In this document: one piece after another, positions 12,681 through 43,545 of the stretch | Numbering within the stretch: the first letter of the stretch is position 1 | How the letters are laid out: every line of letters starts with the position of its first letter | From: Nitrococcus mobilis | GTDB lineage: Bacteria; Pseudomonadota; Gammaproteobacteria; Nitrococcales; Nitrococcaceae | Length of the DNA stretch: 64,000 nucleotides | Reading direction: 5' to 3' | Assembly: GCA_024102725.1 (NCBI GenBank) | Contig: JAGFJL010000068.1 | Coordinates: forward strand, 62,001-126,000 | Program-made: the position numbers and the translations under genes | The notes under the pieces: model-generated | Told to the model about the DNA's origin: nothing | The model's input: the letters and a program-made list of their open reading frames with translations, nothing else | Database searches by the model: none

Positions 12681-13283
12681 ATGGATAAGCACAGACACTC
12701 ACTAATCGCCCAGGGCATGAGAGGACACCCCTTGATACGCCAGCGACGGCTTCAACGCGGCTCGGTGCTGATCGTCAGCCTGCTCTTTTTGCTGGTGCTG
12801 ACCTTGATCGGCATCACTTCGATGCAAGGGGTCTCGCTCGAGGAGAAGATGGCCGGCAACGCCCGTGGCGGCACGCTCGCCTTCCAGGCGGCGGAGGCGG
12901 CGCTGCGCGATGGCGAGAGCTGGGTCATGGGCATCGACCTGCACGACCCGCCTACGCCGGTAGACACCTGCTCCACCGCCCCTTGCGCGCTGTGGGAGGC
13001 CGGCGAGCCCGAGCCCTACCCGGAGACGAAAGCCATGGCCTGGTGGCAGAGCACTGGGCGGGAGTATGGCGTTACGGGCACCCAAGAGCTCACGGCCTTG
13101 GCGAGCGATCCACGCTTCCTGGTCGAGTACCTGCGCTATGACCCGGCCAACAGTGTCCTGAACAGCAACGAGCGTGCGCGGCACATCGGACCGCATTTCT
13201 ACCGGGTGACCGCAGCAGGCTTCGGCCCCCAGGGCAGCACGCAGCGGGTCCTCCAATCCACGGTGCGGACCTGGAAGAATTAA
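12681..13283 (+). CDS. pilX: type IV pilus assembly protein PilX
   Basis: PilX is a small pilus-assembly pseudopilin-like protein. The segment RGSVLIVSLLFLLVLTLIG with SMQGVSLEEKMAGNA after it is the PilX N-terminal signature, which lacks a classical G|FTLIE site. Downstream is AFQAAEAALRDGE. The start is uncertain: ATG 12681 (200 residues) or ATG 12717 (188 residues), neither with a strong ribosome binding site. A still earlier start at 12558 would translate through a palindromic repeat and is unlikely. Confidence 0.88.
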   Translation: MDKHRHSLIAQGMRGHPLIRQRRLQRGSVLIVSLLFLLVLTLIGITSMQGVSLEEKMAGNARGGTLAFQAAEAALRDGESWVMGIDLHDPPTPVDTCSTAPCALWEAGEPEPYPETKAMAWWQSTGREYGVTGTQELTALASDPRFLVEYLRYDPANSVLNSNERARHIGPHFYRVTAAGFGPQGSTQRVLQSTVRTWKN

Positions 13284-13346
13284 TCGGCCCGGCGCAGCGA
13301 GTCATCCGGGACCGGTGCAAAATCAATCGGATCGAGGGAACGAGCC

Positions 13347-30490: not shown

Positions 30491-30567
30491 CGGGGTGTAG
30501 CTCAGCTTGGTAGAGCACTGTCTTCGGGAGGCAGGAGTCGCTGGTTCAAATCCAGTCACCCCGACCA
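30491..30567 (+). tRNA. tRNA-Pro (anticodon CGG), integration target
   Basis: The 77-nt cloverleaf has CCA encoded. Acceptor CGGGGTG pairs with CACCCCG, the D arm is GCTC...GAGC, the anticodon loop TTCGGGA gives CGG, and the T arm is GCTGG TTCAAAT CCAGT. Its 3' half is repeated at 42162 and 43469, which marks it as the attachment gene of the downstream mobile DNA. The intact tRNA stays functional after integration. Confidence 0.95.
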
Positions 30568-30573
30568 TAAAAA
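30523..30573 (+). repeat. attachment site, left (attL, tRNA-Pro 3' half)
   Basis: The 51 bases from TTCGGGAGGC in the anticodon loop to CCATAAAAA are identical at 42162-42212. Such tRNA 3'-end identity blocks are typical attB/attP cores of tyrosine recombinases. Confidence 0.9.
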
Positions 30574-30578
30574 ACAAA

Positions 30579-30605
30579 GGGTTAGGTCAAACGCCTAGCC
30601 CTTTT
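30579..30605 (+). terminator. intrinsic terminator after tRNA-Pro (left copy)
   Basis: GGGTTAGG and CCTAGCCC pair (one G-U) around a short loop and are followed by TTTT. Related terminators follow the second and third copies of the tRNA 3' half; their loops differ from this one. Confidence 0.8.
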
Positions 30606-30614
30606 CTAATTACG

Positions 30615-30634
30615 GGGGGTGCAATAGGGGTGCA
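30615..30634 (+). repeat. 20-bp end repeat, left copy
   Basis: GGGGGTGCAATAGGGGTGCA is identical at 42011-42030 near the other end. It contains GGGGTGCA twice, ten bases apart. It is a candidate arm-type integrase site. Confidence 0.6.
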
Positions 30635-30707
30635 GTTCGCTTTTGCAGAACATCTTTTTAGATATACACCGTACTTAGGTACGGAGTTATGAAGCGGTAC
30701 CCCCGCC

Positions 30708-30791
30708 TATACCCCCCTGTGCAACAGTGCAACCGTGCAACAGCCAATAATGACGCGGGTTTCAGCGATGCATGGGGTTGCGCGGTTGCAG
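30708..30791 (+). repeat. iteron module A
   Basis: TATACCCCCC is followed by three abutting 8-mers TGCAACAG, TGCAACCG, TGCAACAG (30720-30743), then GCGGGTTTC (30755-30763), then two inverted 8-mers GGTTGCGC, GGTTGCAG (30776-30791). The same order occurs at 37181 and, inverted, at 40111-40196. Confidence 0.75.
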
Positions 30792-30922
30792 TGGCGCGGA
30801 GTCAGTAGGAAGGCAGCGGCTATCAGGCGGGATAACAGCGGCGGGAAGGTGTAACCACGTCACAACGGCATCAGTTGTGCATCCTAGAACGCTTCTTGCA
30901 AGGTTGCATAGAGCATTCCAGC

Positions 30923-31087
30923 ATGCAAAGTCATGCCAACTACCGTTTATCGGAAAGTAGTGGAACACCGCGCGGCAATATTCGTGACAGTCACGTTTGC
31001 GAGCGCTGCCGATTGAGGGCGGAAGAGCGTAAACATGTTTACGGTTTGCTAGAAGTCATTGCCGACCGGCGCTACGGCCATTGGTAA
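30923..31087 (+). CDS. possible small protein with a CxxC pair
   Basis: A 54-codon plus-strand ORF ends RCRLRAEERKHVYGLL... and holds a CERC pair. It stops 15 bases before an intrinsic terminator on the same strand, which suggests that this strand is transcribed. The ribosome binding site is weak, the sequence overlaps a 16-bp palindrome (31028-31043) and the first direct repeat, and I recognise no family. It may instead be part of a non-coding control region. Confidence 0.3.
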   Translation: MQSHANYRLSESSGTPRGNIRDSHVCERCRLRAEERKHVYGLLEVIADRRYGHW

Positions 31088-31239
31088 GATGCACGAGTAG
31101 TCGGGACGGTGCCGTCCCTTTTACTCTCCCGAAGTAATCCCTGGTCGGCAGCACGGCCATTGGTAAGACGATGGCAAAGCGTGCATATATGCACGATCCG
31201 CGAAGTAATCCCTGGCCGGCAGCACGGACAATGCAATAG
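31051..31239. repeat. three imperfect ~38-bp direct repeats at the left end of the element
   Basis: Copies begin at 31051, 31130 and 31201. They share GAAGTNATNCC, GGCAGCACGGCCATTGG-like and TAAGA blocks. Copies 2 and 3 are nearly identical over the first 30 bases. Spacings are 79 and 71 bases. A palindrome GTGCATATATGCAC (31181-31194) lies between copies 2 and 3. Confidence 0.7.
31103..31122 (+). terminator. intrinsic terminator, plus strand
   Basis: GGGACG and CGTCCC pair around GTGC and are followed by TTTT. It lies just after the small plus-strand ORF. Confidence 0.6.
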
Positions 31240-31369
31240 CCCCGCTCACACCCTGCACAGTGCATAGCTTTCGAGGCCGATATGCGAGAGGTGCCGATAA
31301 CACCCTCATACAGGCACGCAAGCGATTGATTGGTGGTGCACGCAGCGCCGTGGCACTGGAGTGCTCGAA

Positions 31370-31558
31370 TCACAGCCGCAAACCGGCATGCTTCTCCGTG
31401 ACCTTCAGCAACTCATCCACTGCATCGCGACGCTTGTTCGGGTCACGGCTGCCGGCCCGTATGACCTCGCCCAGCGCACGCGCCAGCAGCAGCGCCCGGT
31501 CGGCCGGGTGGCTCAAGTCGGCGAGCTCGTCCAGAAAGGTACGTTCCGGCTGTGTCAT
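31370..31558 (-). CDS. small protein downstream of the tape-measure gene
   Basis: This 62-residue charged helical protein reads MTQPERTFLDELADLSHPAD... Its start overlaps the end of the tape-measure gene (ATGA, 31555-31558), so translation is coupled. It is the last gene of the element's operon. Phage tail genes often follow the tape measure, but this is too short to assign. Confidence 0.55.
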   Translation of the reverse strand: MTQPERTFLDELADLSHPADRALLLARALGEVIRAGSRDPNKRRDAVDELLKVTEKHAGLRL

Positions 31559-33519
31559 CCGCTCGTCACCACGATGCGGCCGCCGTCAGCCATGTTGTCG
31601 TTGATCGACTCCAAAAGATTTCTAACGGACTTACGGTCGAAACTGTCGCCCCGCAGGCTTATGTTCGTGACCGGCTGCGGCGAAGATTGGCCTGCATCAC
31701 CGCCGACTGGCGTGACTGGCGTTGCTGGTGTGCTTCCTGCCAGTGATGGCGCTGCACCGCCACCGCCCCCGAATGACTGTGCGCGAATAGCGTTTACTTG
31801 CGCAAAACCCGCCGCAGCGTGCGCCGCCGCCATGATTCCGGCCAGTGGCCAGGCATACGTCGCCAAGGTCTTCGTAATGCCCTGCTTAGTGTTGATGATG
31901 GCATTGGCGATTGCGGCCGCCTGGTTGATGCGGAAAAGCACCTTGTTCTGCGTTGCCACGGTGTCAGTCATGGACTGCAATTCACCGGCTACGGTCTTCG
32001 ACTGCTCGGCAAAACTCATGGCAGTGAAGCGCTCCATGGCAGACATGCCACGCCGACGCAGGTCTACTAGCTTCTGCATGTGAGCCGCCTCGGCCTGTTG
32101 CTGAAGCTCACGGAACTCGGCCTCGGTCTCTATCTCGCCTTCCTTGAATCCGCGCTTGATGTCGGCCATGACCTGCAAGTGCTCACGCTGCAATTCCTGC
32201 TCGGTGACAAACCGATTGCGGATGGTCTCCAGTCGACGTTGCCAGTCCTCTTCCTGCTGCTGAGTGTCGCCGCCTGCGGTGAGATCAACATGCGCCGGCG
32301 CATTACGGACCTTCACGACCTCGGCAGCCGCCTGCTGCGCCTTCTCCTGTACTTCGCGGACCCACTGCTCCAGCCCAATCGTAGGCAGGCCACGGCCGGT
32401 GAGCTCCACCAGTTCCGCCCGAGTCTTGCGTACGGCGTCGGTCGCGCCCTCGGTGATGCTGTCGAGCCGCTGTTGCAGCTCTGATCCCTGAAATGAGGTA
32501 ATCAACTCGATATCGATGCCTGGAATCGCGTTTAGGCCGCTAATAACCGCGTTCGTGCCGCTGCTGACGAAATCCAGAAAGCGCGCGACGCCGCGCGTCA
32601 GGTCACTAAGGATGAACCAGAACGCAGAGGCGAATCCCTGAGCCGCAAGCTTGGCGCCGGTGAAGGCGACCTGAAAACTGCCGAATATCATGTCCTCCAA
32701 CTTGAGGATGACTGACCCTATTTGAGCCAACTTGTCCCTAAACCCGCCGGTCTCGCGCGCCGCCTCAGTGAATTTGTTGGCAAGCGCCTCTACGACCGGG
32801 GCAACCTGGACCGCCACGCGCTGAACCACACCCTCAAGCGCATTACCCGCCGAAGCAAGAGCCCGCTGAGCCCGTACCGCCTGCTGCGTGTCAACTTTGC
32901 TCATGGCGAACCCGAACTGCTCTGCCTGATCGGCCGCCTTGCGGAATCCCTCAGCACCGCCGCTCAACGCTGGAATCATGTCGCGCAAGGCATCGCCGCC
33001 AATCATCGCGGCTGCGGCTGCTTTGGTGGACTCGTCCTCGACGCGGCTCATGGCGTCCAGAAACTGCACCCAGACTTTATTGACGTTCTGCGTGAGATCT
33101 ATCTGCCGGCCGCTTGCCTTCTCCAGCAACTTGAAGCCGTCTACGGCCTCGCCTGTGCCAGTCCGCGCCTCGCCTACCCGCTCCGAGAAGTCCGTCAGCG
33201 CATCCGCCGCACGCTCGCTCGAAATCCCGAACCGCCTGGCCTCGACTGTCGCCGCCTGGATGGTGCGAATCTGGATACCAGTGACCTTGTTGAGGCGATT
33301 GATGGCCTGGATGGCGTCCAACTGGCTCTTGACCAGGTGCGCGCCGATAGCCGCACCGGCGGCCGCAGCGGCGGCGCCTAGTGCCGCCAGACGGGACGCC
33401 GTGGCCGCCGCTCTAGCACCAATGCGCTTTAGGCTGCTAGTGGCACGACGCGCGCCGCGTTCTAGGCCGGCGGTATTCGCACCGATTCTTACAACGAGTG
33501 ATCCAACGGGAGCTGCCAT
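31555..33519 (-). CDS. phage tail tape-measure-like protein
   Basis: In tailed phages this protein sets tail length and helps genome entry. From ATG 33519 the protein has 654 residues. The start MAAPVGSLVVRIGANTAGLE with paired ATSSLKRIG repeats resembles tape-measure N-termini. An alanine-rich hydrophobic stretch lies near residues 42-65, a second hydrophobic region near 280-310, a long coiled coil near 425-510, and a glycine/alanine-rich C-terminal part follows. An ORF start 16 codons earlier lacks a ribosome binding site. No tail tube or chaperone gene accompanies it, which is odd. Confidence 0.75.
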   Translation of the reverse strand: MAAPVGSLVVRIGANTAGLERGARRATSSLKRIGARAAATASRLAALGAAAAAAGAAIGAHLVKSQLDAIQAINRLNKVTGIQIRTIQAATVEARRFGISSERAADALTDFSERVGEARTGTGEAVDGFKLLEKASGRQIDLTQNVNKVWVQFLDAMSRVEDESTKAAAAAMIGGDALRDMIPALSGGAEGFRKAADQAEQFGFAMSKVDTQQAVRAQRALASAGNALEGVVQRVAVQVAPVVEALANKFTEAARETGGFRDKLAQIGSVILKLEDMIFGSFQVAFTGAKLAAQGFASAFWFILSDLTRGVARFLDFVSSGTNAVISGLNAIPGIDIELITSFQGSELQQRLDSITEGATDAVRKTRAELVELTGRGLPTIGLEQWVREVQEKAQQAAAEVVKVRNAPAHVDLTAGGDTQQQEEDWQRRLETIRNRFVTEQELQREHLQVMADIKRGFKEGEIETEAEFRELQQQAEAAHMQKLVDLRRRGMSAMERFTAMSFAEQSKTVAGELQSMTDTVATQNKVLFRINQAAAIANAIINTKQGITKTLATYAWPLAGIMAAAHAAAGFAQVNAIRAQSFGGGGGAAPSLAGSTPATPVTPVGGDAGQSSPQPVTNISLRGDSFDRKSVRNLLESINDNMADGGRIVVTSG

Positions 33520-33657
33520 GTCCTTATCCCAAAAAAAGAGGGGCGGGGCCAAGCTACCAGTCCGCACGCCCCCAATAGTCTAAGGATGTCGCCGGTTTCG
33601 CGCTGGAGTGGACGCGGGCACCGGCAAACCCAGCTTTAAGGCAGCCAACCATTTCTG

Positions 33658-34851
33658 TTACGACAAGGCGACCTTGATTACTTTGGCCGCGTGGTCATCG
33701 CGGGTAATCCCGCCGACGCGCTTACGGATGTAAAATTTTGTTTGGCCTGGCTCGGTGATATTCGAGTCGACCGTGATCCGCAGGCCGAAGCTATCCGCAA
33801 TCGTGTAGCCGCGCCGGAAATTACCGAACGCTACCGGGTGCGCATTGGCGCCGATGTCGGGCATGTGCTCGGCGAGCTGCACACGATGGCCGCATAGCAT
33901 GCTTGGCTGGCCCTCGATGAGGCTGTCTTGCCAGATGTAGCGGCCGTCGGCGTCTTTGAACCGCCTAATCACGCCAGCCGTCGAGCTGTTCATCAACCAG
34001 ACCGCGCCCGAGCGGTAGCCGGCACGCAGGGCGTAGACGGTCTGCCACAGCACGTCAGCCGGGTAGTGCTCCGGGGAGCTGGTCGACAGCGTACCGAAGC
34101 CATCCGAGACGCCGGTCGGGATGTACTGGAGCACGCCGAACGATCTCGCGGGCGATCCGTCATCCGCCGTGCTCACCGGGGAAGCGTCCAGGAAGCCGGT
34201 CGGCTTTTTGGTGCCGTCGCCGCTGATGAAGGCCTGGGATTCGGCGATGGCCAGTTCCTCGGAACAGCGGTCCACCAGCCAACCCTGGACATCGAACATG
34301 ATGTCCGCCAATGCCTCTTCAGAGGCTTGCGGGCGGCTGTAGACAATCCCGAATGTCGGGCGCACCTCCGCAAGCTGCGGGGTATTGGTTTCGCTACGAG
34401 AGTCGCCCTCGCCAACCCAGCCGGAACTGGTGCCGCCGATATCAACGAGCTCTACGTAATCGCTGCTCGATACCTGCACCACGCGAGCAACCTGGCGGAT
34501 GGGCGACAAATCCCTCATACGCTGCAGGATTTGCCGAGATAGCTGTTCCGGTACGGCAAAGCCGCCGCCGGGGTCGCTGCCCTCGGTCACCGCCTTCTGC
34601 TGCACCTGCTCCAGATACCCGCGCGTATTCGGCGAGGTCGGGTTGCGCAGCCACGCATCGAAAGCCTTTAAGTGTTCCTGCTGCTCTGGCGTCACGCGCT
34701 GGCCGCTCGGTCCAGCCCGCATCGGCATGTCTCGGTCGCACTCCAACTTAGAGAGCCTTTCTTCAAGCTCAGATTTGTACGCTCTGTCGCGACGGGAAAA
34801 ATCATCCCATTCAGAGTCCAGCTTTTCGATTACTTCATTTACGTTAGGCAT
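33658..34851 (-). CDS. HK97-type major capsid protein
   Basis: This 397-residue shell protein of the HK97 gp5 family has an N-terminal coiled-coil delta-like region (residues 1-45), then VTEGSDPGGGFAVPEQLSRQIL, which usually marks the start of the mature domain near residue 85. FISGDGTKKPTGFLD near 210 and WLMNSSTAGVIRRFKDADGRYIWQ near 275 are typical P- and A-domain motifs. The delta-like region implies cleavage by a prohead protease, but no such gene is present. A helper phage would have to supply portal, protease and large terminase. Confidence 0.92.
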   Translation of the reverse strand: MPNVNEVIEKLDSEWDDFSRRDRAYKSELEERLSKLECDRDMPMRAGPSGQRVTPEQQEHLKAFDAWLRNPTSPNTRGYLEQVQQKAVTEGSDPGGGFAVPEQLSRQILQRMRDLSPIRQVARVVQVSSSDYVELVDIGGTSSGWVGEGDSRSETNTPQLAEVRPTFGIVYSRPQASEEALADIMFDVQGWLVDRCSEELAIAESQAFISGDGTKKPTGFLDASPVSTADDGSPARSFGVLQYIPTGVSDGFGTLSTSSPEHYPADVLWQTVYALRAGYRSGAVWLMNSSTAGVIRRFKDADGRYIWQDSLIEGQPSMLCGHRVQLAEHMPDIGANAHPVAFGNFRRGYTIADSFGLRITVDSNITEPGQTKFYIRKRVGGITRDDHAAKVIKVALS

Positions 34852-34995
34852 GGTAATACTCCGTGCAAATATCTGAGTTTCACGTTTCGATCACCGGCTT
34901 TGCACGGATTTAGCACAACGTCACGCAGGCTTGTAATCTCGGGTGAACTTGAAGCGTCGCGCAGCAAGCTCAAGCCAGTAATTCAAGTATATCAT

Positions 34996-35229
34996 TCAAT
35001 TAAGTGTTTTCGTACCTTCTGCGTCGATTCGGTCGGCAATTCGACGCAACCATTCCGCCGTTTCTGCACTGCCGCTCAATTGAACGCTTGCCTGCAATGC
35101 CGTCTCGAACAGCGCGTGTAAAATGGCCCGCTGCGAAACGCCGGCCTCGGTTAGTTTATTCGCCGCGCCAGAGAAAAGCCGTGCGCATTTCAAACCGTCG
35201 TGGTGTTCGTCTCGAATCTCGTCAGTCAT
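34996..35229 (-). CDS. small helical protein, paralogue of the next gene
   Basis: This 77-residue protein contains AILHALFETALQASVQLSG and AEWLRRIADRIDAE. The upstream gene product has a matching pattern (ALTINWLRGLADRLESE), so the two are tandem paralogues overlapping by eight bases. I recognise no family. It lies just before the capsid gene. Confidence 0.55.
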   Translation of the reverse strand: MTDEIRDEHHDGLKCARLFSGAANKLTEAGVSQRAILHALFETALQASVQLSGSAETAEWLRRIADRIDAEGTKTLN

Positions 35230-35446
35230 TTTGAATCTCCGATTCCAGTCTGTCAGCCAGTCCTCTCAACCAATTAATCGTCAGCGCCCTTCCGCTCGAT
35301 TCTAGAGCAACAACCAACATGGCCTGCGTTATCGAGCGGCCGATAATCTCCTGCGGAATTCTGCGCTCTAGCATGTCGTCAACCAGCTGCCCGAATTCGT
35401 ACGTGCAATCGAGCGCGAGTTGCTCGTCCTTATTCCGTTTGGTCAT
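35222..35446 (-). CDS. small helical protein, paralogue of the previous gene
   Basis: This 74-residue protein reads MTKRNKDEQLALDCTYEFGQLVDD... It shares the C-terminal W-L-R-G/R-L/I-A-D-R pattern with the product of 34996-35229. The start overlaps the end of the preceding gene by four bases (ATGA), so translation is coupled. The role is unknown. Confidence 0.55.
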   Translation of the reverse strand: MTKRNKDEQLALDCTYEFGQLVDDMLERRIPQEIIGRSITQAMLVVALESSGRALTINWLRGLADRLESEIQND

Positions 35447-35718
35447 TTCTCAACCTCCGGCACAACGCCGCTACGTTGGATTAGCTCGTCTCTGATTTCC
35501 TTGGCACGATGGCAGCCGCCGAGCTCTTTATCCGAGCAAGGCTCGCCGCCGTGCAGCCATAGGCTCCTGCACCATGCCGGACTGCATTCCCATGGTTTCA
35601 GCTTCAGCGCGCTGTGCACGCCATCTAGATCACCTTGGCGCCACATCTCCACCACGGCGGCGTCGAGTTGGATTCGCTGGTTCCTCGTCCGCTTTTCACG
35701 CTTTACTGGCATATTCAT
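35443..35718 (-). CDS. small protein with four cysteines
   Basis: From ATG 35718 this gives 91 residues, MNMPVKREKRTRNQRIQ..., with cysteines in WECSPAWC and EPCSDKELGGCHRAK that could bind a metal. An ATG two codons later is also possible and is better spaced from AAGGTGG. A longer reading from 35853 would overlap the neighbouring gene almost fully and is unlikely. It is part of the overlapping operon. The role is unknown. Confidence 0.5.
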   Translation of the reverse strand: MNMPVKREKRTRNQRIQLDAAVVEMWRQGDLDGVHSALKLKPWECSPAWCRSLWLHGGEPCSDKELGGCHRAKEIRDELIQRSGVVPEVEK

Positions 35719-35896
35719 TCCACCTTGGTAGTCCTGGCACTTCATCGCCGAAATATTTCCATCCGGTGTAATCGTGCCAATCATCTGAATCAAACTCGGG
35801 CACTTCGCCAGTTGCGAGTAATCGACGTGCCCATTCTGGGGTATCCATATCACGCCGCTGGCGGGTGCGTTTCGTCCTAGTCGTCGGCATTAGCAT
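35696..35896 (-). CDS. small hypothetical protein
   Basis: This 66-residue protein has a basic N-terminus (TTRTKRTRQRR) and an acidic aromatic C-terminal part (DSDDWHDYTGWKYFGDE). It overlaps the gene on each side by a few bases, as most genes in this operon do. An ATG at 35890 is an alternative start. I recognise no family. Confidence 0.5.
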   Translation of the reverse strand: MLMPTTRTKRTRQRRDMDTPEWARRLLATGEVPEFDSDDWHDYTGWKYFGDEVPGLPRWNEYASKA

Positions 35897-36243
35897 TTAA
35901 CTCCTATTCCGCCGCTAGGCCGGCCTGGCCGGTCCCTTAATGGCTCGAGGTCGAGATTCAATTGTTTCAGAGCGGCCAAAAAGCCGTTTCTAGCGTCTTT
36001 CTCAAGCGCACAGGCCGGGTGTACTTTCGTTTGGCCGTAACGGTCTGTAACGACCTCTCCTTGCGCCTCAATGGCATCTTGAGCCGCGCGCATTCGGTCC
36101 AAACACTCCGACGCCGTTGTCAGTAATGCGAGTCCCGCCGCGTCGTCGATTGCGTATTCAGAAACAACGTCTCGAAATAGCTTTCGGCCATCGGGTTTAA
36201 GGTGCTTTGGTGGTCGCTTCGGCTTCAACATAGTTTCAATCAC
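35890..36243 (-). CDS. phage terminase small subunit, P27 family
   Basis: TerS recognises the packaging site on phage DNA. The 117-residue protein matches the P27 family pattern: KPDGRKLFRDVVSEYAIDDAAGLALLTTASECLDRM, then HPACALEKDARNGFLAALKQLNLDLEPL. The start is GTG (36243) directly after the previous stop; ATG 36231 is an alternative. No large terminase gene follows. Satellites use their own TerS to redirect a helper's packaging motor, so this fits that lifestyle. Confidence 0.88.
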   Translation of the reverse strand: MIETMLKPKRPPKHLKPDGRKLFRDVVSEYAIDDAAGLALLTTASECLDRMRAAQDAIEAQGEVVTDRYGQTKVHPACALEKDARNGFLAALKQLNLDLEPLRDRPGRPSGGIGVKC

Positions 36244-36390
36244 TCAATTTCGACTTTTCGTGGCTGCCTCGCCGGTCCTAGGCTCTTTCCCGCTCAACTT
36301 TTGACGCCCCCGCCGGTCCGGTTTGTTGCGTGGCCGCTGCCGCCACTTGCGCATCAGTCTCCTGGCCCATCCACTACGGGTCTTTCTCAC
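36244..36390 (-). CDS. small basic protein
   Basis: The 48-codon GTG ORF codes for an extremely basic protein (WARRLMRKWRQRPRNKPDRRG). Its start overlaps the previous stop (GTGA), and its stop abuts the terminase start. The dense packing argues that it is translated. It may bind nucleic acid. Confidence 0.45.
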   Translation of the reverse strand: MRKTRSGWARRLMRKWRQRPRNKPDRRGRQKLSGKEPRTGEAATKSRN

Positions 36391-36545
36391 GCTGCTGCCT
36401 CCTGCTGCTCAATCTGCCTCACCGCCTCGGCTATCGCGTCCCACTCATCCTCGCTGTACAGGTCGAGCCAAGCGGGTAGCCGGCCATCGTGCGTGCGTGC
36501 GTGCTCCAGCACCTTGGCTGCTAGGTCGTGAGTGTCATCGGTCAT
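36387..36545 (-). CDS. small acidic protein
   Basis: The 52-codon ORF reads MTDDTHDLAAKVLEHARTH... and contains DLYSEDEWDAIAEAVRQIE. It overlaps the TubC-like gene by 11 bases and the next gene by four bases. The role is unknown. Confidence 0.5.
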   Translation of the reverse strand: MTDDTHDLAAKVLEHARTHDGRLPAWLDLYSEDEWDAIAEAVRQIEQQEAAA

Positions 36546-37071
36546 TGGGCACCCCCACTTGCACACCGAAGACCGTGCTGCCTACGGTGCGGGTCTTTGG
36601 CTTATCGCGGACAAGCTCGGTCGCATACGCCCGCACGGTCGAGGCTGGAATCAACCCATTTGCTATATCGTCGATATCATCCTGAGCACACCACGCGCGG
36701 AACTCATCAGCCGTAATCGGTAGGCCTGCAACGGCGTTGCGGATGACGATGCCCACGTCCTTGCGCCGGGTAGCGGGTATACGCCCACCGGGTACCGTGA
36801 GGGTTGCGGCCGGGGTAGTGGTGCGCGGGTGGCACGCCGAGCACAGCCACGGCCCGTCCCGCTCAGTCTGGTGGTACGCGCCGCTGCCGCAGTGGTGCGG
36901 GTCGGTAGGTTCGACAGGTACCAGCAGATGCAGCAGCTCATCCTTCTCCTGCCGCATCCGCTCCATTAACTCCTGAGTCATGACGTCCGCAGGCGCTCGA
37001 TATCGCACCTGGCCGTGCTCCGCCCATACCTCGACGCCACGCTCGCGAAGGGTGGATAGCAGCGTACTCAT
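36535..37071 (-). CDS. protein with TubC-like N-terminal docking domain
   Basis: From ATG 37071 the protein has 178 residues. Residues 1-50 (MSTLLSTLRERGVEVWAEHG, then RYRAPADVMTQELMERMRQEKDELLHLL) follow the TubC N-terminal docking pattern: helix, W-x-E beta hairpin, helix. This domain also occurs in some phage and plasmid primase-associated proteins. A CxxC pair (WLCSACH) near residue 80 and HHCGSGAYH before it suggest a small zinc site. The start overlaps the primase stop by four bases, so it may partner the primase. Confidence 0.6.
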   Translation of the reverse strand: MSTLLSTLRERGVEVWAEHGQVRYRAPADVMTQELMERMRQEKDELLHLLVPVEPTDPHHCGSGAYHQTERDGPWLCSACHPRTTTPAATLTVPGGRIPATRRKDVGIVIRNAVAGLPITADEFRAWCAQDDIDDIANGLIPASTVRAYATELVRDKPKTRTVGSTVFGVQVGVPNDR

Positions 37072-39326
37072 ATGCTGCCCTCCACGTAGTCGTCGGAGGT
37101 GTTGCACGGTTGCACGCCAGTTTTAGGGGATATAGACCCACTGTCGGAATCCACGCTGTCGTAGTCCGAAGCGGCTCCCCTATATACCCCCCACTGCACA
37201 GCATCAACCGTGCAACCGCTAGGCGTGGCGCGGGTTTCCGGGTTGCACAGTGTTGACGGTTGCGGGAGCACCTCTATGGTCTCGGGTAACGGCTCGCCGA
37301 TTACCCACCTACCGGGACGACCGCGCTTGTCCTCTTTGTTGCGGATGTACCCGCCATCGGCAGCGCGGCGTATCCTTCGGCTCGCAGCAGACTTGTCTAC
37401 GCCTAGCCGCTTCGCCACGTCGGTGACGGTTACGCCGCTCTCGTCGGCGAGCTCATCGACCGCGCTCACTGTTTCCCGCACTGTGTCCGATACAGTCGCG
37501 CCAATGCCTTCGGATACAACACCGGACACCAGCTCCCGCACGGCTACATAATCATCCATGGTGGCGATTATCCGGCCGCTCTTGTCCCTCTCGCGGCTGC
37601 ACTGGTGCAGGATGGCGTGCGCGCGGATAAGCGCGAGCACAGAAGCGAAATCCCGCCGAAGCCGTACAGCTAGCGGTGGGACGGCATCTGCCAGCGTACG
37701 AGAATAGGGAATCGTGACCTTGTGCTCGGCCACCTGCAGCCACGCCTGGAATTTGCGCCACGCCTGCAGATCCACGTCTCTCTCGGATTCATCAGCCATG
37801 GCAGCCAGGACGTTTCGCGTCTGCTCCGCGCCGTCATCCGTGTTAAGCGATAGGATGCGGGTCTCGTTTTCGGAGTGAACTCGGGTCTTAGTGGTCGTAA
37901 AGACTAGGTTGGTCGGTCCTTCCTTCGTGATGCGCTGCGCTGTGTACTGGCCGTCCTCGCCGCGTACAGTCACGTCGTACTCGATCCGGCCTTCTGAGAG
38001 CAACGAGCGCATGAAGTAACTGGCGAGATCGTCTTCATTGCCCTCGCGCAGTCCGGTGACTTCATAAATCACTATCGTGCGGTGACTGTATGAGTCTTCG
38101 CGGTAGATCAGCGCCCGCTCCGACATTCCGGTAAAGGTGACTACCGCCTCTTCCGGGAAGAAATCGAGCACGCGGCCGACAACCCAGCTCTTGCCGCTGG
38201 AGGAATGGCCTTTCACACCGATGGATACTGGCTTGTTCAGCAGCCGGCTGGTTACGGCCAGGTAGAGGAGTTGCGCGGTTGCATATTCGCCAATCAGCCC
38301 ATGCAACCGTACGTCCCGCCGGAAATCAGACAAAATATCCTGTGAATACGCCAACTTAGGCGCTAAAGACTGCGCCATTTCAGTCAGCGGTTGCACGGTT
38401 GCACGGTTGCCCGAGGGGGTGTATAGGCCCTCGAACTGCCGCATAACCTCGTCCAAACCGCGCACGCAGTGCACGTCGTTGAAGTCGCACTTACCGTTTT
38501 CGAGCTCCGGTACGGCCAGTTGCCCGCCAACGGCCTGCGCTGCTTCGGTAGCCTTTGCAACTCCAACATTCTCCGAACCGTCGTCGCGGATATCGTTATC
38601 CGCTGCAATCACCATCTGAATGTCCGGGTACTTCGAGCGCAGTGATTCGGCCACCTTCTTTAAGTTGCCGGCGTTGAATGCGACCGCTACAGCCGCTCCT
38701 GTGGCCTCGTGAATACTTGCGCCGGTAGCGAAGCCTTCGCAGACCACGATCAGATCGTCAGGACGGCCGATGGCGTAATACGTGCCGCATACACGGCCGC
38801 CAGGTAGGAAAAGCTTCTCGCCGGTCGGGTCGATTAACTGAAGGCTGCACAAGGTGCAGTCGGCACTCATAGGGATAATGAGTACGCCGTCCTCGTCAGT
38901 GCGGACCCCATGCGCGCTGATGCCTTTTGCGGTGAGATACGGGTTGTCTGACGGTGCCGGAGAAGCGGTGCGCCATATTTCGAGCGCACGCCGTGCGGCA
39001 TCTGCTTGACGCCTATCCCGTTCGGCTTTGCGCTGCCGCTGGATAGCTCGCCATTTCTCCCGCAGCTTCCTGGCGTCGGACTTGTCGAGCGTATCCGGCC
39101 GCACGGCAGCCCATTTCTGTGTCCAGCCGGTGCGCCAGCATCCGAATGCGCCGGCCGGCATTTCGCCGTCGTGCAGGACGTACCATCCGGCATCGTCACT
39201 GCCTTTACCATTAGTTGAGAATCGGTGCAGGTTGCCATCGGCGATAATGTGCTCCGGGACGGGAAACCCCGCCCCGGAGATCGCCTCAGCGAATGCCCCG
39301 ACTGAATCAGAAGCCGGGGATTTCAT
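37068..39326 (-). CDS. primase/helicase-like replication protein
   Basis: This 752-residue protein has a Toprim-type region with VVCEGFATGASIHEATGAA and MVIAADND near residues 200-245. A P-loop ATPase/helicase domain (GVKGHSSSGKSWVV) lies near residue 370. A C-terminal winged helix-turn-helix (VTVTDVAKRLGVDKSAASRR) is near 650, followed by a low-complexity tail. ATG 39326 has AAGGAG ten bases upstream; 39350 is an alternative. Toprim plus helicase in one chain is usual in satellites and plasmids that start their own replication. Iteron clusters lie inside this gene at 38388-38425 and near its 3' end. Confidence 0.82.
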   Translation of the reverse strand: MKSPASDSVGAFAEAISGAGFPVPEHIIADGNLHRFSTNGKGSDDAGWYVLHDGEMPAGAFGCWRTGWTQKWAAVRPDTLDKSDARKLREKWRAIQRQRKAERDRRQADAARRALEIWRTASPAPSDNPYLTAKGISAHGVRTDEDGVLIIPMSADCTLCSLQLIDPTGEKLFLPGGRVCGTYYAIGRPDDLIVVCEGFATGASIHEATGAAVAVAFNAGNLKKVAESLRSKYPDIQMVIAADNDIRDDGSENVGVAKATEAAQAVGGQLAVPELENGKCDFNDVHCVRGLDEVMRQFEGLYTPSGNRATVQPLTEMAQSLAPKLAYSQDILSDFRRDVRLHGLIGEYATAQLLYLAVTSRLLNKPVSIGVKGHSSSGKSWVVGRVLDFFPEEAVVTFTGMSERALIYREDSYSHRTIVIYEVTGLREGNEDDLASYFMRSLLSEGRIEYDVTVRGEDGQYTAQRITKEGPTNLVFTTTKTRVHSENETRILSLNTDDGAEQTRNVLAAMADESERDVDLQAWRKFQAWLQVAEHKVTIPYSRTLADAVPPLAVRLRRDFASVLALIRAHAILHQCSRERDKSGRIIATMDDYVAVRELVSGVVSEGIGATVSDTVRETVSAVDELADESGVTVTDVAKRLGVDKSAASRRIRRAADGGYIRNKEDKRGRPGRWVIGEPLPETIEVLPQPSTLCNPETRATPSGCTVDAVQWGVYRGAASDYDSVDSDSGSISPKTGVQPCNTSDDYVEGSI
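37100..37265. repeat. iteron modules B and E at the 3' end of the primase gene
   Basis: Module B (37181-37265) starts TATATACCCCCC. It continues with degenerate 8-mers ending ATCAACCG, TGCAACCG (37203-37218), then GCGGGTTTC (37230-37238), then GGTTGCAC and CGGTTGCG. A shorter module E (37100-37133) has TGTTGCA, CGGTTGCA and GGGGATATA. Both lie in the stretch coding for the low-complexity tail. Confidence 0.7.
38388..38425. repeat. iteron module C inside the primase gene
   Basis: CGGTTGCA, CGGTTGCA, CGGTTGCC abut in tandem (38388-38411) and are followed by GAGGGGGTGTATA. This is the inverted half of the composite module seen at 30708, 37181 and 40111. It codes for the linker between the Toprim and helicase parts. 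Confidence 0.7.
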
Positions 39327-39663
39327 CGTCAAATGGCTCCTTTGCTGCACGTAGCTTTATGCCGCCGATCCGCTTGCCGGCGTACCGAACGCTCGGGTCA
39401 ACGAATATTTCTACTCGTGCACCAGCAAAGTCGTCCGTATCATCGGAGCCGGTCAGCTCGGCAAGCTGCTCCAGCGCCGTCATGTTGAGCGGCCAACCCT
39501 TATCAATGCCTTTGAAGTAGATAACCGGCTTCAAATCGTCGCCGACCTCTTCTTCAACGATTCGCTCAACGACGGTCTGGCGCTCCTTCTCTGACATTGC
39601 CTCGACGTCGTCCTTGCGGAGCCACTTGGAATTGCGGTACTTTGCGATCTTCACTTCATTCAC
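39307..39663 (-). CDS. hypothetical protein upstream of the primase
   Basis: This 118-residue protein has a charged helical N-terminal half (WLRKDDVEAMSEKERQTVVE) and a C-terminal FAGARVEIFVDPSVRYAGKR followed by IGGIKLRAA and an acidic end PFDDEIPGF. Its stop overlaps the primase start by 20 bases. An acidic C-terminus next to a primase recalls single-strand binding proteins, but I cannot confirm an OB fold. Confidence 0.6.
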   Translation of the reverse strand: MNEVKIAKYRNSKWLRKDDVEAMSEKERQTVVERIVEEEVGDDLKPVIYFKGIDKGWPLNMTALEQLAELTGSDDTDDFAGARVEIFVDPSVRYAGKRIGGIKLRAAKEPFDDEIPGF

Positions 39664-39765: not shown

Positions 39766-39993
39766 TTAAGTGCCCCCTGTAGCTCTCACGGTATTACGTT
39801 CGATCCACGCGACGATGTCGGACCGGCGATATCTAATCGCACGACCGATAGCCACGTATGGGAGGTCTCGTAAAGGATTGGAGGGGAGCCGGTGCAGGCG
39901 GGCCGCCTTGAGGGTGCCAGCGGAGACGCCTAAGGCATTAGCGGCCTCTCGCGTAGTCACCAGCTCAGGCTGCGGTATATTTCCGTCGGTCAT
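39766..39993 (-). CDS. small helix-turn-helix protein, AlpA/excisionase-like
   Basis: This 75-residue protein has one MerR/Xis-type winged HTH: LVTTREAANALGVSAGTLKAAR, then GRAIRYRRSDIVAWIERN. Such proteins act as AlpA-type activators of excision or as directionality factors in P4-like elements and satellites. It lies downstream of iteron module D and could bind there. The 100-base gap to the next gene (39664-39765) shows nothing I can name. Confidence 0.75.
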   Translation of the reverse strand: MTDGNIPQPELVTTREAANALGVSAGTLKAARLHRLPSNPLRDLPYVAIGRAIRYRRSDIVAWIERNTVRATGGT

Positions 39994-40110
39994 CGGTGGT
40001 AGCTCCCACGTATCTTCTATTCACGTAGGTCCACCTTATTAGGGAGGGTAGATTGCGTCTTTCCCCAAAGATTATTATTTTTCGAGAAGCGGTAAGTTCG
40101 TGTCTAGGTG

Positions 40111-40196
40111 TGCAACGGTGCAACCTGGTGCAACCCGGAAACCCGCGCCAGTGCTTGCGGTTGCACGGTTGCACTGTTGCGCGGGGGGGTATATAT
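40111..40196 (-). repeat. iteron module D upstream of the HTH gene
   Basis: On the plus strand: TGCAACGG, TGCAACCT and TGCAACCC (40111-40136), then GAAACCCGC (40138-40146), then CGGTTGCA, CGGTTGCA, CTGTTGCG (40158-40181), then GGGGGGGTATATA. Read on the minus strand it follows the same order as modules A and B. Confidence 0.75.
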
Positions 40197-40211
40197 GGGG
40201 CCGCTACATAT

Positions 40212-40745
40212 CTAATCTACATCGTCGGGATTCATAATGTGGGGTTCTAGCAGGGATTTAACCGCTATCGGAGGGTTGCTCATCCGCTCCTTGACACTGT
40301 AGTAATACTCGCTCGCAAGACGCTTTCCTATGTGGAATTCCTTGCCCACTTCATCGAAAAGATGCTCATCAATTGGCATGTTTCGGACTTGATGCCATTC
40401 GCCGTTATGCACCCGCCACTGTGGCTTTAAGTGAAGCTCCCTGATGCGGCCGTAAACGGCGAATTCAAGACGGCGCTTTTTGATATACGCCGCCTTGTGC
40501 TTTCCCTTCGGCCACTGAATACCAAACGCCTCCCCCAGATCATCTGCCGAGCGGCTGATGAATCGGTTCCATGATCTATGCAATTCGCGGTCGACCCATT
40601 CCGGCATCAGCACCCCCCATCTCGCGCAGAACATGAGAGCGTGCATAAGCGCGTCTGAATACCCGGCCTCAAACATCAGGCGGTATTCTTCTAGTTGCGC
40701 TTCCGCAACCTGCTCTGGAAGCTTCTTTTCTGTGTCCATGCTCAT
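40212..40745 (-). CDS. hypothetical protein downstream of the integrase
   Basis: This 177-residue, Trp- and Tyr-rich protein contains ARWGVLMPEWVDRELHRSWN and KRLASEYYYSVKERM. There is no membrane segment and no motif I recognise. Its start overlaps the integrase stop (40742-40745), so the two are coupled. It could be an element-specific regulator. Confidence 0.6.
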   Translation of the reverse strand: MSMDTEKKLPEQVAEAQLEEYRLMFEAGYSDALMHALMFCARWGVLMPEWVDRELHRSWNRFISRSADDLGEAFGIQWPKGKHKAAYIKKRRLEFAVYGRIRELHLKPQWRVHNGEWHQVRNMPIDEHLFDEVGKEFHIGKRLASEYYYSVKERMSNPPIAVKSLLEPHIMNPDDVD

Positions 40746-41983
40746 GCCACGCTCTCCTTGCGGCTCTCTTTCGCCGCCGTGAGACGAGCCACCGCTTCGG
40801 CTTTGTGCTCTGGCGCCAGATGGGCATAGCGCAGCGTCATCATTAAATCACCGTGCCCCAATAGCTCCCGCACGGTATTTAGGTCCACGCCTGCCATAAC
40901 TAGCTTGCTAGCGAAGTGGTGGCGCAGATCGTGGAAGCGGAATCCGGTAATTCCGGCATCCGAGAGCACGCCGCGCCAGGACTTGTTTATATTGTCGAGT
41001 CGCCCGCCGTCCCTACCTGGGAATACCAGTCCCTTGCTAGCCTCCGTCGTCTTCTGCCAGCCCTGCAGCACCGCCAGGGCTTCAGTGTTCAGCGGGATAT
41101 GCCGGGTTTGTCCGCTTTTGGCTCCATAACCGTGCACTGTGAGTATGGAGCGGATCAGGTCCACGTCAGACCACTTCAGGTTGAACAGCTCGCCACGGCG
41201 CAGCCCGGTGTTCATAGCGAGAAGCACCAACGGCCGCAGATGGTCCACGTATGGCACGGCGCGCAGATCGGGCATGATCGGGTAGCCGCGCAATAGCCGC
41301 CACTGGTTGGCGTTTGCCCGTTCGGCCCTGGCCTGCTCTTCGCGCGCAGCTAGCGCCGCACGCAGCCGGGTTTCCTCGTCGTCGCTCAGGTAGCGGACAA
41401 CGCCTCTGCGGTCGAGCTTGGCGGGTTTCACCTTGGCGATGGGGTTGGCGTCGATCACATTCCATTCGACTGCCCGATTTAACGCCGATTTCAGAGCCGT
41501 TACGTCACGGTTGACGGTAGAATGCGCCTTGCCGTCCTTCAGGCGCTTAGAACGCCACTTCTCAACGATCCAATGGGTAATCTCAGGCAGCCTCTTGCCG
41601 CCTATCTCGCTGTCAAAGCACGCCTGCAGGCGGGCCAGCGTGGCAGCGCCGTCCTTTCGGTGTGCTTTCGCCCACGGACCGTATATGTTTTTCAAGTAAT
41701 CCCGAAACGTGGCTGACTTCGCGCGCCGACTCTCTGCGCGTACGTCCTTACCTTTGGCTGCGTCGCCAAGGATTGCCTTTGCCTGCTCACGAGCCTCAGC
41801 AGGCTTCAAATCGGTGAGCCTGCCAAGCGTGTGCCACTTGCCGCGAGCGTAATTCACGCGCCAGCTATGCCGGCCGGATTTGCGCAGCCGAAGAACGAAC
41901 CCGATTAGCTTGGTATCGTAGATGTCCATATCCCGGCCTTCGGGCAGGTTCTTCAGCATGGTGTTGTTTAGTGCCGCCTTCAT
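40742..41983 (-). CDS. tyrosine recombinase / integrase
   Basis: This phage-type integrase should act on the tRNA-Pro attachment site. From ATG 41983 (AGGAAGC upstream) it has 413 residues. The N-terminal DUF4102-like arm-binding part contains IYDTKLIGFVLRLRKSGRHS. A SAM-like core-binding domain spans about residues 95-190. The catalytic domain shows Arg in NTGLRRGEL, HDLRHHFAS (H-x-x-R), LLGHGD and the nucleophile in LRYAHL. A longer reading to 42091 would cross the 20-bp end repeat and is unlikely. It lies next to the right attachment repeat. Confidence 0.95.
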   Translation of the reverse strand: MKAALNNTMLKNLPEGRDMDIYDTKLIGFVLRLRKSGRHSWRVNYARGKWHTLGRLTDLKPAEAREQAKAILGDAAKGKDVRAESRRAKSATFRDYLKNIYGPWAKAHRKDGAATLARLQACFDSEIGGKRLPEITHWIVEKWRSKRLKDGKAHSTVNRDVTALKSALNRAVEWNVIDANPIAKVKPAKLDRRGVVRYLSDDEETRLRAALAAREEQARAERANANQWRLLRGYPIMPDLRAVPYVDHLRPLVLLAMNTGLRRGELFNLKWSDVDLIRSILTVHGYGAKSGQTRHIPLNTEALAVLQGWQKTTEASKGLVFPGRDGGRLDNINKSWRGVLSDAGITGFRFHDLRHHFASKLVMAGVDLNTVRELLGHGDLMMTLRYAHLAPEHKAEAVARLTAAKESRKESVA

Positions 41984-42010
41984 TGCTGTGCTTCCTACAG
42001 CTGCGATTCT

Positions 42011-42030
42011 GGGGGTGCAATAGGGGTGCA
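42011..42030 (+). repeat. 20-bp end repeat, right copy
   Basis: This is identical to 30615-30634 (GGGGGTGCAATAGGGGTGCA) and lies 28 bases upstream of the integrase start. Confidence 0.6.
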
Positions 42031-42161
42031 AATTGGTTGCCTCGCGGTATACCTGAATGCACGACCATTGCCTTAATTGGCACTCTAACACCTTAAATAT
42101 ACTGGGTATAGAGGTGAATCAAAAAAGATGGGAGTATATGGCGGGATAGTTATTGAACGCA

Positions 42162-42212
42162 TTCGGGAGGCAGGAGTCGCTGGTTCAAATCCAGTCACCC
42201 CGACCATAAAAA
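42162..42212 (+). repeat. attachment site, middle (attR of the large element)
   Basis: The 51 bases are identical to 30523-30573. It is only the 3' half of a tRNA gene, lacks the 5' half and is therefore not a tRNA. Confidence 0.9.
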
Positions 42213-42217
42213 CAAAA

Positions 42218-42245
42218 GGGTTAGGTCTATGGCCTGGCCCTTTTT
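42218..42245 (+). terminator. intrinsic terminator after the second tRNA 3' copy
   Basis: GGGTTAGG and CCTGGCCC pair with two G-U pairs, followed by TTTTT. It resembles the third copy more than the first. Confidence 0.7.
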
Positions 42246-42701
42246 CAATGCCTGGAAGTGACCAGGAAGTGCAGGCGGCCCACCTCGTACGACATCGACC
42301 GAGAGCGCATGAGCCCAGCAGGGAATAACCCGCAAATTGTGGCCGTCACATATCCCAGCCGTTCAACCGCCCCAGCTGCCGCCAGGCGGCCACCTTGAGC
42401 GCATTCCATTACACACAAGTCTGTTCCAGTCGATTCAGGCCGCGCCGATGTCATCCAAGTGATTGAAAATACTGGTCCCATCTGCCCAGTCGACATTTAG
42501 TGGAAACAGTCCATAAGCTGTTGTTTCAATTGCATGTTCTGGACTTATGTATAAGGAGATGCCTTGAGCGCGTCGCTGTATTCAGGCGATTGGAGCCGCT
42601 AGGCAGATATGCTCCAATCAATCTTCAGGCGCCGTTTCCATGACTGTGGTCCGGTCGCAGAGCTCGCTACGCATTATCCGCTTTACCTTTGTAAGCTCCA
42701 C

Positions 42702-42731
42702 ACGTATATTGTATATACAAAAGATATACGT
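42702..42731 (+). promoter_or_regulatory. nested palindromes at the toxin-antitoxin promoter
   Basis: ACGTATAT (42702-42709) and ATATACGT (42724-42731) form outer arms around the perfect palindrome TTGTATATACAA (42709-42720). The site ends 14 bases before the toxin start and overlaps TATA-like boxes. It is a likely autoregulatory operator, as is usual for such modules. Confidence 0.6.
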
Positions 42732-42745
42732 GAGGTGTGGGGCTT

Positions 42746-43051
42746 ATGAAGCTAAACATCTCGACTTCAGTCGGGCACAAACTAACTAGCAGACATGGTG
42801 TAAGCGAAGAGGACATCAGGCAATGCTTTGCTAATCGGAATAGTCGGATGCTCAAAGACATTAGGGCGAAACATGATACCCAGCCACCAACAATGTGGTT
42901 CATATCGGAGACGGATTTCGGCAGGAAGCTAAAAGTTGTTTTTATTCAAGAACGTGACGGTAGCATTACAATCAAGACAGCATATGAGCCAAATAGCGAC
43001 GAAATAAGAATATACGATAAGTATGGTAGAGATGGCTCATTGGAAAAGTGA
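42746..43051 (+). CDS. BrnT-like toxin
   Basis: From ATG 42746 (TGAGGTG eight bases upstream) this gives 101 residues. HGVSEEDIRQCFANRN, TMWFISETDFGRKLKVVFI and IKTAYEPNSDEIRIY give a RelE/BrnT-like fold pattern. A related family is often annotated as ADP-ribosyl-(dinitrogen reductase) hydrolase beside CopG-type antitoxins. GTG 42737 is an alternative start. Base composition is more AT-rich than in neighbouring genes, which points to recent transfer. A ribonuclease role is inferred from the family. Confidence 0.7.
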   Translation: MKLNISTSVGHKLTSRHGVSEEDIRQCFANRNSRMLKDIRAKHDTQPPTMWFISETDFGRKLKVVFIQERDGSITIKTAYEPNSDEIRIYDKYGRDGSLEK

Positions 43052-43091
43052 TAACCCAGTTAGCGCGACGGCTAACGTTGGAGCACATGCC

Positions 43092-43427
43092 ATGGGCAAG
43101 AAAGAGCATATCGAGAGCACAACGGAGGCTTGGGAGGAGAGGCAGCTTGGAGCTGATGAGGAGTTCGTTGAAGTTGCCGAGGAGTTTGATGAGAAGGCTG
43201 CAGATGAGGCGCTAGAGCTCAAGATGATCTCGATCCGCTTACAAGAGTCTCTTATAGAGGATCTCAAGGCAATTGCGCAAATTAACGGAATTGGCTACCA
43301 GCCACTGATCCGACAAATTCTAAACAGGTTTGCGGACGCTGAAAAAAAGAAACTTCTCCGGGAGAAACAGAATGAACTAGAGAATAGAGACCCGGATCCA
43401 AAAAAAGGCCTACGGATAACAAGTTAA
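43092..43427 (+). CDS. CopG/BrnA-like antitoxin
   Basis: From ATG 43092 (GGAG eight bases upstream) the protein has 111 residues. An acidic N-terminal half (residues 1-45) would wrap the toxin. A ribbon-helix-helix domain (MISIRLQESLIEDLKAIAQI, then GYQPLIRQILNRF) binds DNA. An earlier start at 43023 overlaps the toxin gene. The toxin-first order is as in BrnTA. An inverted repeat GTTAGC/GCTAAC lies between the two genes (43059-43076). Confidence 0.75.
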   Translation: MGKKEHIESTTEAWEERQLGADEEFVEVAEEFDEKAADEALELKMISIRLQESLIEDLKAIAQINGIGYQPLIRQILNRFADAEKKKLLREKQNELENRDPDPKKGLRITS

Positions 43428-43468
43428 GATAACGGAAAATATCAGGGAGTGATTTTATACCCGCAAAG

Positions 43469-43516
43469 GGCAGGAGTCGCTGGTTCAAATCCAGTCACCC
43501 CGACCATAAAAACAAA
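43469..43516 (+). repeat. third copy of the tRNA-Pro 3' half
   Basis: GGCAGGAGTCGCTGGTTCAA and onward to CCATAAAAACAAA matches the other copies; identity begins slightly later than in the first two. It is the likely outer right boundary of the mobile-DNA locus. It is followed by its own terminator. Confidence 0.85.
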
Positions 43517-43545
43517 GGGTTAGGTCTATGGTCTGGCCCTTTTTT
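43517..43545 (+). terminator. intrinsic terminator after the third tRNA 3' copy
   Basis: GGGTTAGG and TCTGGCCC pair around TCTATGG and are followed by TTTTTT. It was probably the original terminator of tRNA-Pro. Confidence 0.75.

Follow-up and report, generated by a model that had tools for sequence, protein, structure and literature searches.

Sequence anatomy of the attachment-side control region of a putative PICI/P4-like satellite in a tRNA-Pro gene of Nitrococcus mobilis: arm-type site, candidate origin module and palindrome-repeat array

Gram-negative PICIs are described, in the part of PMC10111431 drawn on here, as ordered into integration, replication and a late zone with captured late genes. 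In EcCICFT073, whose genes and origin follow the order int-alpA-primase-ori-late, the rep-ori segment supports plasmid maintenance and deletion of ori lowers that maintenance (PMC6092414). The iterons of this origin lie in both orientations around a box, AATGGCGCGGSTTTCAG. The record of P4 has crr in the interval that separates attP from the end of alpha, with ori located upstream of vis.

The satellite-like element considered here occupies 11.7 kb in a tRNA-Pro gene of Nitrococcus mobilis, within a 64-kb stretch of contig JAGFJL010000068.1 that was analysed as a whole and is called the window below. It has the order of integration, replication and late genes described for PICIs, and it shares with EcCICFT073 both the gene order and the presence of iterons in both orientations around a box. 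It differs from EcCICFT073 in that the latter has a single origin region after the primase with TGTCTACC-like iterons, a primase of the D5/DUF5906 type and, as far as the consulted part of PMC6092414 goes, no TerS. With P4 it shares doubled arm sites on either side of the core and the placing of its repeat modules, A and B on the one hand and D on the other being found at the relative places of crr and ori. The Toprim part of its primase aligns with P4 alpha (34% over 178 aa, E 4e-17), whereas the C-terminal halves of the two replication proteins could not be aligned by BLASTP, and the ori and crr of P4 lack the box and carry GGTGAACAG-like iterons. No counterpart of P4 sid, delta or psu was found among 10 of the 14 element proteins searched against Pfam and PHROGs and 3 more searched against Pfam. 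Judged from its sequence, the region studied here is probably the cis-control end, on the attachment side, of a satellite of the PICI/P4-like kind, in which module A would belong to a family of primase-driven origin modules acting as ori and crr do.

Insertion site and gene content of the element

The intact target on the attL side is a tRNA-Pro (CGG) gene at 30491-30567 of the + strand, called by ARAGORN and by the Rfam tRNA family. The block common to the attL side and attR begins at 30523, within this gene, and a direct repeat of 99 bp (30523-30621 and 42162-42260) with 87% identity brackets the element, the copy at 42162 duplicating the 3' end of the tRNA together with its terminator. In 3-kb stretches of two genomes of the same genus (L073 and L074), the left flank finds a match of 92% and the element finds none; the right flank joins the left flank directly in L074, and about 135 extra bases lie between the two in L073. 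A third partial copy of tRNA-Pro with a terminator was observed at 43469, which suggests a second, 1.3-kb tandem remnant (42162-43540) containing two small genes (42737-43427) that we take to resemble a toxin-antitoxin pair of the BrnT/BrnA type.

Following this site-specific insertion, int, alpA, the primase and then the late zone read in one direction, as is typical of Gram-negative PICIs, and all the named genes of the element lie on the - strand. They encode a tyrosine integrase with an arm-binding domain (40742-42091), an AlpA/Xis-like HTH_17 protein (39766-39993), a Toprim primase with a Walker-type motif (by eye) and a C-terminal winged helix (37068-39350), which is the proposed initiator, a small terminase of the P27 type (TerS; 35890-36243), scoring just under the curated cut-offs of Pfam and NCBIfam, an HK97-type major capsid protein (33658-34851) and a tape measure protein (31555-33567; phrog_9483, 6e-101). 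The primase matched Toprim_3 (5e-14), MarR_2 (1e-8) and the DNA primase family phrog_2249 (4e-76), and its C-terminal 440 aa had no match in phages.

The late cluster (31555-36243) was seen to be reduced, as far as scanned, to TerS, capsid and tape measure. The element proteins (13 of 14 scanned against Pfam and 10 against PHROGs) yielded neither a large terminase nor a portal, the host assembly (185 contigs) gave no hit to the large terminase family PF03354, and the TerL of viral contig L044 had no match in five genomes of the genus, in a search run without a positive control. The capsid scan led to five viral loci and one distant genome locus (22%), and the nearest capsids in viral contigs belong to the packaging clusters of L044 (46%) and L045 (57%), which by eye hold genes for TerS, TerL, portal, protease and capsid. 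Among annotated phages, all the relatives of the tape measure and the capsid stayed below 60% identity (105 and 496 records, respectively), and scans of viral contigs with the tape measure and the primase returned no close relative of the element.

The 764 bp at 30606-31369 lie between the tRNA-Pro gene and the left-reading gene cluster. Between the tRNA and the first gene there are 802 bp, the sole gap above 300 bp between called genes, and the region of about 760 bp is the longest non-coding stretch of the element; the 291-bp gap before terS contains a 52-aa frame of the - strand (36387-36545). The region also holds 4 of the 52 near-palindromic 16-mers with one mismatch in the window, where an even spread would place about 0.6. 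An earlier note on this DNA had described a control region with an arm-type site at the end of a satellite-like element, holding a dense set of features and no firm gene. This description was borne out: all the listed features are present, the main ones far beyond chance, and none of the four scanned ORFs of the region has a Pfam match up to E 10. The ORF near the terminator on the + strand measures 54-70 aa and has no clear GC3 bias; as a weak 54-aa frame (30923-31087, +), it stops 15 bases 5' of the terminator stem, and besides itself it found matches of E 0.06 or worse in 54 genomes, of E 5 or worse in phages and none in Pfam. It is probably not a gene. When 733 bp of the region were searched, phages gave no match, plasmids gave three at chance level (E 0.2-0.7), and 59 related genomes gave, outside the own genome, a single match of 27 bp in a dapF-like gene (label by eye).

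Arm-type sites, candidate origin modules and their box

A doubled GGGGTGCAA motif at 30615-30634 (+; sequence GGGGGTGCAATAGGGGTGCA) constitutes a candidate integrase arm-type site, and an exact co-oriented copy of its 20 bp is located upstream of int at 42011-42030 (+). With up to 3 mismatches allowed, the 18-mer core of the motif occurs at these two places and nowhere else in 64 kb, against an expectation of 0.06. Measured from near the start of the shared core, the distances to the arm centres are about 98 and 145 bp; for the annotated doubled arms of P4 they are 75 and 134 bp, taken from the core centre, and for the doubled motifs of helper-embedded PICIs 81 and 132 bp, taken from the centre of attP (PMC10111431). 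The attP of those PICIs is similar in having two co-oriented doubled motifs that flank the core at comparable distances, but its motif is TGTATTGC, and the target here is a tRNA gene; the authors of that paper do not decide between integrase, AlpA and another protein as the binder of the doubled motifs. The assignment of the putative arm site is well supported by its sequence. It would be bound by the integrase, AlpA or another protein being possible binders as well.

Module A (30700-30793, +) comprises TATACCCCCC, three direct GTGCAAC iterons (at 30719, 30727 and 30735), a box (30744-30765) and inverted iterons (30777-30790). Module D (40111-40200, -), just upstream of alpA, is an inverted copy of A with 79% identity over 90 bp. 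Module B (37177-37255, +) is located at the 3' end of the primase gene, with more iterons at 37101-37115, and a partial module C (38387-38425, -), with iterons and no clear box, is located inside the same gene. A, D and B can be aligned over about 90 bp. With up to 2 mismatches allowed, the iteron 14-mer GTTGCACGGTTGCA occurs 12 times in 64 kb, always inside the element, against an expectation of 0.65 and a maximum of 3 among 100 shuffles. A 33-bp iteron-like match was also seen in another contig of the host (C31; L007:1501-1533), possibly the remnant of a related element.

The clustered arrangement of direct iterons facing inverted ones is that of satellite origins, as is the AT-rich DNA found beside the iterons. 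The stretch 30635-30684 is 60% AT and 40050-40099 is 62% AT (element mean 41%, 95th percentile 54%); the former includes the CCGTAC/GTACGG near-palindrome (30669-30684), a 16-mer with one mismatched pair, and may serve as a melting region. Module B has no AT peak like those by A and D, and by its place at the 3' end of the primase gene it is the module that lies downstream of the primase as the origin of a PICI does, with A, C and D sitting elsewhere.

The box was scored against its counterpart in the origin region of EcCICFT073. The box of A agrees with it at 20 of 22 positions, more than any other site in the window, followed by D with 18 and B with 17; the next best site scores 15, and module C scores 15. 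None of 2549 stretches of A's length outside A reaches 20, while 3 of 2548 equal D and 12 of 2540 equal B; since no stretch outside A reaches 20, those equalling D and B are the ones over better modules. The 17-bp form of the EcCICFT073 box has two matches in the window at up to 3 mismatches, in A and D, where 0.35 are expected and 6 of 100 shuffles reach two. The architecture and box seen in relatives and in EcCICFT073 are thereby found strongly in A, by box score in D and B, and not in C. The family of module A numbers three complete members and a partial one and shows the build expected of a satellite origin, and the candidate origin module itself is well supported by its sequence.

In the flanks of related primases, arrays of a similar kind were encountered. 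The primase search matched 13 of 95 genomes at E <= 1e-20, counting the own genome. The other genomes contributed 14 places, nine of which were examined with their flanks along with one tape measure locus (L034). These 10 loci were scanned for repeat arrays with a k-mer detector that was given no knowledge of the motif of the window. It returned arrays in 8 of them (L035-L041 and L043) and none in L034 and L042; the shuffled means were at most 0.05. In L035, L037, L038 and L041 the arrays show, by eye, direct iterons, a spacer and inverted iterons, with iteron sequences of their own, and are located at the ends of primase/helicase genes or upstream of int. Alignment of the relatives' arrays with modules A, B and D gives a common box around ATGGCGCGGGTTTC.

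This box is significant in L035 (0 of 493 stretches as good) and in one array of L041 (0 of 214), and it is weaker in L038 (10 of 728) and one array of L037 (13 of 347). L035 and L041 are not independent for the box, because both helped to notice it and the window alignment was also in view; the window scores derived from EcCICFT073 are the better test. Against an origin stands the absence or lack of significance of the box in the arrays of L036 (547 of 549 stretches as good), L040 (560 of 569) and L043 (140 of 221) and in the other arrays of L037 (91 of 347) and L041 (83 of 208). It is missing as well from P4 ori, P4 crr and the lambda origin stretch. As a universal origin element the box is ruled out, since the origins of P4 and lambda and the arrays of several relatives are without it. 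P4 does hold a match at 18 of 22 positions near its right end (L199:11549-11570), away from ori and crr. A literature search by sequence string returned no paper on the box: among the papers listed (10 of 16), none has origins as the subject of its title. The search was confined to text, so that figures such as Fig. 2 of PMC6092414, on PICI origins, may show it.

A model built only from the sequences of six modules of L035, L037 and L041 put module A at the top of the 64-kb window (E 0.034) and the EcCICFT073 origin at the top of 35 kb of E. coli CFT073 (E 0.086), out-of-sample values that are modest. Modules B, C and D fell within the noise of this model (E 1.3, 3.7 and 5.0), which counts against the origin, as do the C-terminal 440 aa of the primase without a phage match and the occurrence of iterons at four places, whereas PMC10111431 puts the origin of PICIs downstream of the primase.

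The iteron modules could also be operators of the AlpA-like protein, serving excision and promoter control and not the initiator. Module D stands at the alpA promoter and A near attL, and AlpA activates its own promoter in EcCICFT073 (PMC6092414). However, modules B and C lie inside the primase gene, and the architecture and box match those of origins, including origins of elements with a different initiator protein; we regard such operators as quite improbable. For module A, a packaging or excision site, the kind of signal expected beforehand near such ends, is not supported, and a replication origin is the best reading of it.

The palindrome-repeat array

Further from the tRNA, an array of three units extends over 31028-31238. 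The units begin at 31028, 31103 and 31180 (75 and 77 bp apart), and each consists of a 16-bp palindrome or near-palindrome of its own sequence, 5-11 bases and then a 38-bp repeat. Unit 1 has a perfect palindrome (31028-31043) followed by repeat 1 (31051-31088, +); unit 2 has a near-palindrome with one mismatched pair (31103-31118) that runs into a T-rich tail, resembling an intrinsic terminator (31103-31128, +), followed by repeat 2 (31130-31167, +); and unit 3 has a perfect palindrome (31180-31195) followed by repeat 3 (31201-31238, +). The second perfect palindrome had been given 14 bp in the earlier note and measures 16 bp. The search for terminators returned one site on the + strand, where 1.0 is expected by chance, a count at chance level that makes it weak evidence when taken alone.

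In pairwise comparison the repeats agree at 28, 23 and 31 of 38 positions, and the best direct pair of 33-mers has 30 matches, where 200 simulations reached a maximum of 24. The palindromes at 31028-31043 and 31180-31195 are the two longest perfect ones in 64 kb. None of 3000 simulated regions held two such palindromes; simulation of the whole window (30 runs) gave a mean of 1.9, and two were observed, so it is their clustering that is unusual and not their number.

We consider the array an element separate from the origin module, and our leading guess for it is a packaging site recognised by TerS. Specifically, it might be a cos/pac site, a rather doubtful proposal in which the P27 TerS that the element encodes would bind three R-like elements next to symmetric sites of cleavage or loading. 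The direct repeats are far beyond chance, the element encodes TerS and offers no second gap above 300 bp between called genes, and the array is downstream of the late genes, as are both cos-like sequences of EcCICFT073. The latter resemble lambda cos and are oppositely oriented within the distal late zone (L076:12559-12592 and 13269-13309), after the capsid genes and before the distal end, a similar placing that lends the packaging idea positional support. Lambda cosB has three R elements, and EcCICFT073 has a cosB of its own, with a TerS-Rpp complex as its proposed reader (PMC6739421, in the part consulted); a set of repeats specific to a satellite would therefore not be odd. As with lambda-type cosB, three direct repeats are found near the end of the late genes, and unlike lambda-type cos, no cosN was identified in the array of the element. 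The repeats of lambda cosB presumably differ from those of the array in sequence and length.

The sequence searches do not favour a cos/pac site. The array had no match beyond chance in the own genome, phages, plasmids and viral contigs (the last by one exact 26-letter pattern), and among 369 genomes of the class its only matches other than itself were five short ones (E 4e-4 to 9e-3), roughly what chance would give for so many genomes. The searches of phages, of viral contigs by one exact pattern and of the own genome did not reveal a helper whose cos or pac matches. The two cos stretches of EcCICFT073 have no direct repeats of 12 bp or more, and in viral contig L044 the P27-type terS has, by eye, an HNH-like gene as its neighbour, which makes a site adjoining terS equally possible. 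The expectation that packaging or excision signals would lie near this end of the element is thus plausible for packaging by position and has no sequence support in the array. Binding of Xis to the three repeats, which had been put forward together with TerS binding, is unlikely, as is binding of AlpA: some 500-700 bp separate the repeats from the attachment core, a distance that a usual intasome would not be expected to span, and neither the alpA nor the terS promoter carries a copy of the 18-mer core of the repeats.

Less likely still than a packaging site, the array may be an RNA element, either hairpins and repeats in the 3' UTR of the late operon or a small transcript of the + strand, possibly together with a decayed small gene. 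The palindromes differ in sequence and occupy matching places in the three units, thereby keeping the hairpins, and copies 1 and 2 of the repeat read, by eye, EVIADRRYGHW-stop and EVIPGRQHGHW-stop in one frame. Against it stand the folding z-scores (+ strand: -1.7, -2.0 and +1.2; - strand: -1.4, -1.4 and +1.0); no Rfam match was obtained in the array, and no promoter-like site was found. By inspection, a mini-CRISPR was rejected, the three repeats being divergent, the spacers 41 and 33 bp long and no other copy present in the genome. A resolvase res site, an integron attC and type III toxin-antitoxin repeats were likewise rejected by inspection against the known features of these systems, no partner gene being seen and the spacing being wrong.

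A shared box, the proposed mechanism and its meaning

The pattern CCAGTMATGGCGCGGSYTT matched at least 120 stretches of viral contigs, and the reversed pattern matched 1. None of 193 related genomes, the own genome included, has an exact match to it, the copy in the own genome having diverged. From these stretches, 80 (L078-L157) with 81 sites were surveyed. In a first test, made once duplicates and cut flanks had been removed, 46 of 54 distinct sites had the box inside an iteron array (shuffles: mean 0.74, largest 3), compared with 48 of 1080 random positions; a stricter test with another duplicate rule gave 24 of 61 box sites (shuffles: 0.58, largest 2). Thirteen different 7-mers top the arrays that contain the box, some of them being parts of one iteron.

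At 26 of the 80 box loci there is a primase resembling the one of EcCICFT073 or the one in the window. Phage_rep_O was matched by 3 of 5 scanned ORFs that overlap the box (two under the Pfam cut-off), and two other box loci encode DUF5906/prim-pol proteins or Toprim plus AAA_25 proteins. At L099 the box is antisense to the overlapping ORF, which favours its conservation as DNA over conservation as a peptide. A box of 19-22 bp was thus observed in the iteron arrays of many prophages and satellites with varied iterons and initiator families, EcCICFT073 among them (L076:9183-9204).

We tentatively suggest, as a possibility short of an even chance, that the box of module A is a diverged copy of this 19-22 bp box, constant across differing iterons and initiators (Phage_rep_O, D5/DUF5906, Toprim with AAA_25 and Toprim with a winged helix), and that its reader is a shared host factor or a helicase-loading step and not the initiator of the element itself.

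In the mechanism proposed for the element, the integrase with AlpA would excise and circularise it. The C-terminal winged helix of the primase-helicase would then bind the iterons, and the enzyme would melt the AT-rich DNA beside A and D and start replication. The modules may act jointly, as ori and crr do in P4.

Overall, what had been a vague control-like region acquires a concrete and testable anatomy of arm site, candidate origin module and unassigned array. The satellite-like element to which it belongs has retained TerS, capsid and tape measure and, as far as scanned, has no large terminase. If the box is indeed constant and read in this way, it would be a common cis entry point for the replication of phages and satellites. 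With an origin box conserved over iteron systems that have different initiators, a shared host function becomes a testable question.
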